A stretch of 64,000 nucleotides of DNA. Origin: Planctomycetota bacterium (GTDB taxonomy: Bacteria; Planctomycetota; Phycisphaerae; Phycisphaerales; UBA1924). The DNA lies in the NCBI GenBank assembly GCA_024276195.1, contig JAJRXR010000052.1:1-64000 (forward strand), given 5' to 3'. The notes under the pieces are model-generated. The model made no database searches, was not told where the DNA came from, and saw only the letters and a program-made list of their open reading frames with translations. Made by a program: the position numbers and the translations under genes. This document shows, one piece after another, positions 5,652 through 6,860 of the stretch (positions within the stretch are counted from its first letter, which is position 1; the number at the start of each line of letters is the position of its first letter).

Positions 5652-6860
5652 ATGCCCTTCGACCAGCCCATCGTCATCGCGACCGGCAACCCGCACAAGG
5701 TGGGCGAAATCGGCGCCGTACTCAGCCAGATCGGCGTCGAAGTGGTCGGTCTGAGCGACCTGCCCGGGGCATTCGAGGAGCCTGTCGAGGGTCGCGATTC
5801 GTTCGAGGAGAACGCGACGCTCAAGGCCATCTCGTACGCCGAGCAGACGGGGCGGGTCTGCCTCGCCGACGACTCGGGCCTGGTCGTTGACGCGCTCGGA
5901 GGCGCCCCGGGTGTCATCAGCTCCCACTACAGCACCGACGGCGTGGAAACTGGCATCACCCGCGAGCAGCGCGACGCCGCCAACAACGCGAAGCTGCTGG
6001 CGAATCTCGAGGGCGTCGCCCCCGAAGATCGAACCGCGCGATTCGTCTGCACCATGGTCCTCGCGGCGCCACCTCCCACCGGAGGGGGGGGCTTCCAGCC
6101 CCCCCACCCAACCACCCCAGCTCTCCCCTACGACGGACGCTTCACCAAACGCCTCGCCGGCAAGCTCCCCCACTGGGACCAGGGCGGCGCCACCTACTTC
6201 GTCACCGCCAGCCTGCGCAAGGGCGAAACGCTCAGCGACTCAGAGAAGGCGATCGTCCTCGAAGCCTGCACGCACTGGCACGGGAGCAAGTACATCCTCC
6301 ACGCGGCTTGCGTCATGCCCGACCACCTCCACATGCTGTTCCGCACGATCGAACAGGGCGACGCCTCCTTCAACGATGTCGCGCAGGTCATGCACAGCAT
6401 CAAGTCGTTCACCTCGACACGCATCAACGCTGCGCGGGGCGTGCGTGGACGCCTCTGGCAGCGTGAATACTTCGACCGATTGATGCGCACCCCGGAGGAG
6501 GGCGACGAAGCCCGCCGGTACATCGAGGCGAACGCGATGAAGGCTGGGCTGGTTGATCGGGCGCGTGAGTATCCGTTTCTTTGGGAGCCGGAGCACGGTG
6601 CGGGGGGGCTGGAAGCCCCCCCCTCCAAGAGTGGGGTCCTCGCTCTCGTCCGCGGCGCCTTCGATGGGCGCATCGGACTCCCCCCCGATGTCCCGCGCGG
6701 CGACAACGGCTTCGGGTACGACCCGCTCTTTCTCACATCCCCCGAGTATCAACGCACCGGCGCCGAGCTGAGCGCTGATGAAAAAAACGCACGATCACAC
6801 CGGGGCGAGGCGGCGAGGCTCATGGCGCGCGAGATCGAGCGGCTGCGCGCGCAGAGCTAA
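5652..6860 (+). CDS. rdgB: ITP/XTP pyrophosphatase with in-frame REP-associated tyrosine transposase inserted
   Basis: The N-terminal 140 residues are RdgB/HAM1: IVIATGNPHKVGEI substrate loop, SFEENATLKA, LADDSGLVVDALGGAPGV, ending at ARFVCTMVLAAP. The C-terminal 75 residues resume RdgB: GDNGFGYDPLF, ELSADEKNARSHRG. Between them (about residues 144-325) sits a complete RAYT/IS200-like domain: GGATYFVTASL, the HUH motif MPDHLHMLF (H225, H227), LWQREYFDRLMR with candidate nucleophile Y273, and the C-terminal RRYIEANAMKAGLVD signature. The ATG follows a GGAG site six bases upstream. Normal RdgB is about 200 residues; this frame is 402. The insertion falls in the surface hairpin region between the ARFVC strand and the EGRI-like strand (AFDGRIG here). 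Whether either activity survives is unknown. Confidence 0.93.
   Translation: MPFDQPIVIATGNPHKVGEIGAVLSQIGVEVVGLSDLPGAFEEPVEGRDSFEENATLKAISYAEQTGRVCLADDSGLVVDALGGAPGVISSHYSTDGVETGITREQRDAANNAKLLANLEGVAPEDRTARFVCTMVLAAPPPTGGGGFQPPHPTTPALPYDGRFTKRLAGKLPHWDQGGATYFVTASLRKGETLSDSEKAIVLEACTHWHGSKYILHAACVMPDHLHMLFRTIEQGDASFNDVAQVMHSIKSFTSTRINAARGVRGRLWQREYFDRLMRTPEEGDEARRYIEANAMKAGLVDRAREYPFLWEPEHGAGGLEAPPSKSGVLALVRGAFDGRIGLPPDVPRGDNGFGYDPLFLTSPEYQRTGAELSADEKNARSHRGEAARLMAREIERLRAQS
6081..6105 (+). repeat. left REP-like hairpin of the RAYT element
   Basis: Contains a 9-bp perfect stem (GGGGGGGCT paired with AGCCCCCCC) around a TCC loop, preceded by GGAG. It is the exact inverted copy of 6602-6626. 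Translated in the rdgB frame it reads GGGGFQPP, free of stops. The runs of eight G and seven C are prone to replication slippage. Confidence 0.85.
6602..6626 (-). repeat. right REP-like hairpin of the RAYT element
   Basis: Exact inverted copy of the left hairpin at 6081-6105. In the rdgB frame it reads GGLEAPPS without a stop codon. Confidence 0.85.

Follow-up and report, generated by a model that had tools for sequence, protein, structure and literature searches.

The rdgB gene in the planctomycete DNA studied here (the window, a stretch of 64,000 nucleotides) carries a whole RAYT, a TnpAREP-type HUH/Y1 transposase, in frame within its coding sequence. Taken together with its relatives in other genomes, the arrangement is in our judgement quite probably an intragenic REPtron, in which a RAYT that is probably active sits in frame, together with its two inverted REPs, in one loop of a housekeeping enzyme that remains intact. 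RAYTs in frame with REP ends, conserved active sites, matching REPs dispersed in the genome and patchy presence among relatives were all observed directly; we further infer that the element would be active as a fusion, protected by its host gene and able to home to the same loops.

A complete RAYT in frame within rdgB

The locus has the following features.

5652..6860, + strand: fused ORF (RdgB N-terminal part, RAYT, RdgB C-terminal part), 402 codons plus a TAA stop
5652..6071, + strand: RdgB N-terminal part, codons 1-140, with the ATGNPHK and DDSG motifs
6081..6105, + strand: left REP, a GGAG foot and then a G/C hairpin, translated as GGGFQPP
6159..6599, + strand: RAYT domain, residues 170-316 of the structural model
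6324..6332, + strand: HUH motif H225-L-H227, placed by alignment
6519..6521, + strand: catalytic tyrosine Y290 of YIEAN, placed by alignment with 4er8 and by invariance
6602..6626, - strand: right REP, matching the left REP perfectly in inverted orientation, translated as GGLEAPP
6627..6857, + strand: RdgB C-terminal part with the GFGYDP and SHR motifs, placed by profile match and motifs

An earlier note on this DNA had described a complete RAYT in frame inside rdgB, and the single 402-codon ORF and its Pfam and NCBIfam domains bear this out. The Pfam Ham1p_like profile matched the ORF in two stretches (best at residues 7-140, E 1.4e-49), while the NCBIfam RdgB models matched the N-terminal stretch and residues 327-387; the insert splits the protein, which keeps each of these models below its cut-off. 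The outer span of the inverted repeats is 546 nt, exactly the 182 codons counted in the note. Each repeat is 25 nt long, 100% complementary to the other, and forms a hairpin behind a GGAG foot; the core palindrome had 2 matches in the window at up to two mismatches, against 0.02 expected. Base shuffles of the insert kept the host frame open in only 34 of 2000 cases. The predicted structure, a check that the note had proposed, agrees with its placement of the insert in an RdgB loop with the frame kept: in the model the RdgB fold closes around the RAYT and both folds are formed, so that the fold and motifs of an RdgB/HAM1 ITPase appear complete around the insert. One rdgB copy was found in the source genome (G000), and likewise one match each in G001 and G002, members of the same genus; both carry the same fusion, also in frame, which removes the worry about a frameshift.

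The insert itself is a RAYT by profile, motif, fold and REP features. Y1_Tnp, a Pfam family that covers both the RAYT and the IS200/IS605 groups, matched residues 200-293 above its cut-off (E 4.7e-8), and the NCBIfam model REP_Tyr_transpos (NF047646) matched residues 174-309 with 89.9 bits against a cut-off of 80, whereas the IS200/IS605 model NF033573 reached 19.8 bits against a cut-off of 55. In the structural model the domain has the fold of the solved RAYT 4er8, and inverted REPs flank it, with a GGAG foot in place of the GTAG-like one. Standing as an independent gene, which is usual for RAYTs and not part of their definition, is a feature that the window copy lacks. The HUH motif proposed earlier at H225-x-H227 is confirmed, both histidines being invariant in 13 of 13 aligned rdgB fusions. 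The proposed catalytic tyrosine was misplaced: Y273 (EYFDR) is a serine in two of the 13, and the tyrosine of the Y motif is Y290, which is invariant in all 13 and aligns with YIYINP of 4er8, although the window motif (YIEANA) does not end in NP as YIxxNP-like motifs do.

A start scan found no in-frame ATG, GTG or TTG in codons 136-221 of the window copy, so the whole RAYT domain cannot start alone and depends on rdgB expression. The suggestion that the element borrows a housekeeping promoter is thus partly right, being supported for this copy. As a general rule the lack of an own start was rejected, since 43 of the 58 embedded copies described below have at least one such codon in the 40 codons before the LPH motif (ATG in 23).

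Recurrent embedding in related genomes

In its own genome, which has seven NF047646 matches in all, the window RAYT has two relatives at E <= 0.001, and these lie in frame in valS (contig C7) and leuS (contig C64). Across 201 genomes (its own and 200 relatives) the same query gave 67 matches in 53 genomes. Reading the frame around every one of them placed 58 within a host gene and nine outside. The hosts were valS (25), rdgB (16), leuS at a site A (11) and a site B (3), and miaA, an Hsp70-like gene and a kbl-like gene (1 each). The valS, rdgB and leuS assignments were made from flank similarity and motif reading; those of miaA (IPPT), Hsp70 and the aminotransferase fold come from Pfam, 'kbl' being our own reading. 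The contig ends on the 3' side in five of the rdgB or valS cases.

The rdgB site is occupied in 16 of the 190 genomes with a detected rdgB, own genome included. The presence/absence comparison suggested in the note therefore shows a patchy insert, and separate rdgB and RAYT genes at the locus, which the note had named as grounds for refutation, were seen in none of the 16 cases. With the same site filled in 16 genomes and sister RAYTs in other housekeeping genes, a unique or simply recent insertion no longer describes the element. In all 16 rdgB fusions the insert comes after the same strand (ARFVCxM in the window), and in the valS fusions it occupies one common loop ahead of the F.P.RYAK motif. 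A search for KMSKS at first pointed to nine valS fusions that had lost it. Contig ends truncate three of the nine, RMSKS or KMSKT variants stand in five, and one, in G002, has a real break. In that fusion (L075) a stop lies in a further REP and KMSKS follows downstream in the same frame, as in a broken gene or an assembly error. Second leuS copies or fragments were found in two of 14 genomes, G077 and G011; in G077 the second leuS-like match lies at C13:433023-433871 and the other leuS is fused to a RAYT. G150 has a valS-like match on a second contig.

Most of these genomes are MAGs, and the window comes from a draft metagenome assembly with G/C homopolymers at the junctions, so an assembly artefact or pseudogene was considered. 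It is scarcely credible: 16 rdgB genes from different genomes share the position of the insert, the RdgB motifs are present in all 16 apart from the C-terminal ones in two copies cut by contig ends, and embedding is also seen in the single-contig assemblies G069, G109 and G166.

The active site is conserved throughout. In the alignment of the 58 embedded copies the first histidine is present in 58, the second in 57 and the tyrosine in 57; among the 65 embedded copies of the GTDB set described below (within the best 80 of 412 relatives) the corresponding counts are 65, 65 and 64, the two sets overlapping, so that their counts are not summed. The exceptions are G079, which lacks one HUH histidine, and G006 and GTDB locus L259, which lack the tyrosine; by sequence these copies look dead. 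They are what could be expected of a passive relic, a dead insert that is tolerated and slowly decays. We regard this explanation as highly improbable, given that catalytic residues are retained in nearly all copies, that REPs identical to the flanking ones occur elsewhere in the genome, and that RAYT dN/dS was below 0.5 in all eight close pairs compared (0.14-0.45, against 0.15-0.37 for host stretches that take in some codons upstream of the true start).

A different HUH protein (Pfam Y1_Tnp) occupies some of the valS loops in which the first family is absent. This second family is distantly related and is embedded in frame as well (L169, L172, L194 and other loci); by reading, its motifs NHVH, W[TA] and Y...EQ fit TnpAY1 class 3. 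A valS was detected in 116 of the 121 genomes searched, and with matches paired by contig, place and frame, 25 of these 116 had a transposase in the loop, 16 of the first family and nine of the second. Many weaker second-family matches lie in short frames. The remaining valS loops are short and clean, and at least two (G016 and G037) hold by reading a lone in-frame REP-like peptide.

REP ends and their dispersed copies

The flanking inverted repeat scored better than 10 shuffles in 54 of the 58 embedded cases. A G[GT][AG]G foot was present on the best hairpin at 41 left and 40 right ends, out of 58 each, compared with one of 58 control stretches upstream. The REPs are also dispersed in the source genome. 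Counting the RAYT-flanking copies, the rdgB-type core occurs 10 times (17 bases, up to one mismatch), the valS-type REP 58 times (26 perfect) and the leuS-type REP 33 times (25 perfect; 23 bases and three mismatches allowed for both), while reversed-pattern controls for the three types gave 0 matches each in the same genome. Eight rdgB-type REPs lie away from rdgB, six of them within protein frames, namely those of a 2-oxoacid dehydrogenase E2, GcpE (at the N-terminal edge, where the copy may fall outside the protein), PGI, methylmalonyl-CoA mutase, an MPG glycosylase and DNA polymerase III alpha. Ten chosen frames with valS- or leuS-type REPs were assigned by Pfam to ClpB, CarB, MetRS, SerRS, a class II tRNA synthetase, an AIRS-domain enzyme, an FAA hydrolase, an MgsA-type ATPase, Dus and a MiaB-like enzyme. 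The leuS-type REPs (L322-L351, on G000 contigs) often form close inverted pairs, and some lie inside the MetRS, CarB and ClpB frames.

A strict codon-bias test for a coding-like frame through the REP was passed by 3 of 8 rdgB-type, 11 of 30 valS-type and 15 of 30 leuS-type copies, so that half or more of the copies examined fail it; the sample covered 30 of the 58 valS-type and 30 of the 33 leuS-type copies, with some genes shared by several copies and three RAYT-flanking copies included. One point against the REPtron reading is that other RAYTs in the genome could mobilise these REPs.

Hosts beyond the order

With 25 embedded RAYTs as queries, a scan of GTDB found 412 relatives, and the best 80 were analysed. 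Judged by flank length, 65 of these 80 are embedded and 15 standalone. Both flanks come from the same host gene at 58 of the 65 embedded loci; of the seven one-flank loci, six are cut by contig ends and one lies beside a run of unknown residues. Within the best 80 of 412, the 58 two-flank hosts, counted with each host's own representative, are valS (20), rdgB (12), recG (7), ileS (4), alaS (3), purH (3), DUF1156 methylase-like (3), type ISP RM (2), and priA, metH, an Hsp70-like gene and an N6_N4 methylase (1 each), the new hosts resting on profile matches of one or two representatives apiece. NF047646 was over its cut-off in four of six other-host representatives and under it for recG L264 and alaS L267, and Pfam Y1_Tnp was absent for alaS L267 and type ISP L210. 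Several records, of Verrucomicrobia and kin, have a recG with an embedded RAYT (L257, L264, L266, L273), by reading at one place; alaS, priA and metH each carry one too. The DNA methylase or restriction-type hosts (L210, L214, L254, L255, L270, L271) are probably dispensable.

The records are titled Phycisphaerales and other Planctomycetota, Verrucomicrobia, Zipacnadia, Solibacteraceae, Chlorobiaceae and Syntrophobacteraceae; they are mostly MAGs, and titles may be wrong (one rdgB fusion is titled Cyanobacteria). A phylum-wide sample gave a match in 130 of 392 genomes, and among the matches listed most frames are short, which suggests that standing alone is commoner in wider relatives.

Probable descent, loss and host switching

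On an 87-row RAYT tree the host labels are clustered, with 12 changes against a shuffled mean of 52.7. Hosts are also switched: valS is filled from two sub-lineages, and the miaA and kbl-like copies fall among the leuS RAYTs. A 61-row clade comprises all 58 embedded rows and three standalone ones. Standalone RAYTs of the same genomes were rejected as a direct source, the 20 sampled forming a separate supported branch. The valS host tree has 55 rows (24 of the 25 valS fusions and 31 other valS loci), on which the insert state changes 15 times, at least eight of these changes being forced by supported branches; the shuffled mean was 18.3 and 36 of 500 shuffles were as low, a weak clustering that leaves descent there poorly resolved. 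RAYT and host distances correlated weakly for valS (r 0.29, 19 rows, p 0.02; r 0.26 for all 24 rows) and moderately for rdgB (r 0.46, 16 rows), which argues against strict vertical descent and points to neither pure descent nor pure transfer.

The rdgB insert is common to G000, G001 and G002, while G003, closest to G002 (90.8% DNA identity over 1905 bp), has a clean rdgB loop with no insert, which fits a clean loss. The pair G078/G107, with RAYTs 0.98 identical and host stretches 0.89, was considered as a case of homing and rejected: the high-identity tract is mosaic and reaches into downstream DNA, which indicates recombination. Our reading of the trees and loops is that the insert is in part inherited, is lost cleanly and has repeatedly entered the same loops again.

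These patterns also bear on a domesticated bifunctional enzyme, whose host would retain the HUH domain for some function connected with that enzyme, such as nucleic-acid sensing or DNA handling. Purifying selection and the conserved active site are in keeping with this idea, as are the persistence of inserts at the same sites of rdgB and of valS across a family and the handling of nucleotides, DNA or tRNA by several hosts. Nevertheless, we consider it unlikely, because the insert is absent at each site in most genomes searched, the hosts are unrelated, the valS tree has its 15 state changes and the REP copies indicate a mobile element. Domestication to a single host, as the note had entertained, misfits in particular, with RAYT relatives switching hosts and a close relative, G003, cleanly without the insert.

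Discussion

We favor an intragenic REPtron, for which the following route can be proposed. A REP-RAYT-REP unit would insert in a loop-coding stretch of a housekeeping gene, by a chemistry known from TnpAREP cleavage near REPs. Survivors would be the in-frame, stop-free copies in tolerant loops, with the REPs turned into flexible linkers, as the anatomy and the structural model suggest. The host start codon would then drive the transposase, as the missing start of the window copy implies, and a stop or frameshift in the RAYT would break the enzyme too, so that the element may be kept from decay. The fused transposase domain could mobilise its own REP family, giving short inserts, some in frame in other genes, as the identical REP copies would suggest. 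Clean loss and then regain at the same loops may account for the patchy presence.

Known RAYT genes, such as RAYT/TnpAREP and its REPtron in E. coli (PDB 4er8 is a solved structure), stand alone, whereas the present gene encodes one domain within a housekeeping protein, lacks a stop and, in the window copy, has no start of its own ahead of the HUH motif. There is also a likeness to inteins with homing endonucleases, in which a nuclease is nested in frame in conserved genes, with patchy presence and recurrent sites as found here. The nested in-frame position and the clean empty sites in relatives are typical of elements that are removed before the enzyme works, be it from the DNA of some members of the population, from RNA (like an IStron) or from protein (like an intein). 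Such removal is, in our estimate, decidedly unlikely for the present insert: its ends are REPs, no intein families were among the Pfam and NCBIfam hits of the fused ORF, the frame is open throughout, which RNA removal would not need, and the model keeps both folds with the insert in place. In contrast to inteins, the insert seems to remain as a loop domain.

Di Nocera 2013 (PMC3733652) describes Rickettsia palindromic elements (RPE) as well as ORF inserts that consist of REPs alone. They resemble the present case in being palindromes in frame in genes that include tRNA synthetases and DNA repair genes, and differ in being REP-only, with 20-30 residues for many and 43-82 for clusters; its RAYT section and related passages do not describe the transposase gene itself within host ORFs. 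REP cleavage by TnpAREP is reported in PMC8266576, and one paper terms TnpAREP domesticated. The signature NHVH, W[TA], Y...EQ is given for TnpAY1 class 3 in Quentin 2018 (PMC6006769) and is, by reading, that of the second valS-loop family. That survey left out a few unexpectedly long proteins, which it took for fused genes or faulty annotations, and may thereby have missed embedded members. The literature searched, mostly outside subscription journals, held no account of RAYT genes inside host ORFs.

More tentatively, and with some doubt, these elements could represent a widespread mobile-element class in several bacterial phyla that normally lives within indispensable proteins, translated as a loop domain: an analogue of inteins without splicing that would home to the same loops (valS, leuS, rdgB, purH, recG and others), be protected by its hosts and sow in-frame REP peptides across the proteome. 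Fused genes of this kind are easily misannotated or filtered out, which is a warning for surveys. They mark where large enzymes tolerate a domain of ~140 residues, and would account for unusual peptides seen in frame in planctomycete proteins, such as GTGVPPV, GRDARAT and GGLEAPP. They also offer a ready assay, as a single protein allows both the activity of the host enzyme and the mobility of REPs to be scored. RAYTs are an old puzzle, transposases retained for unknown reasons, and their residence inside needed enzymes would provide a concrete mechanism of persistence.
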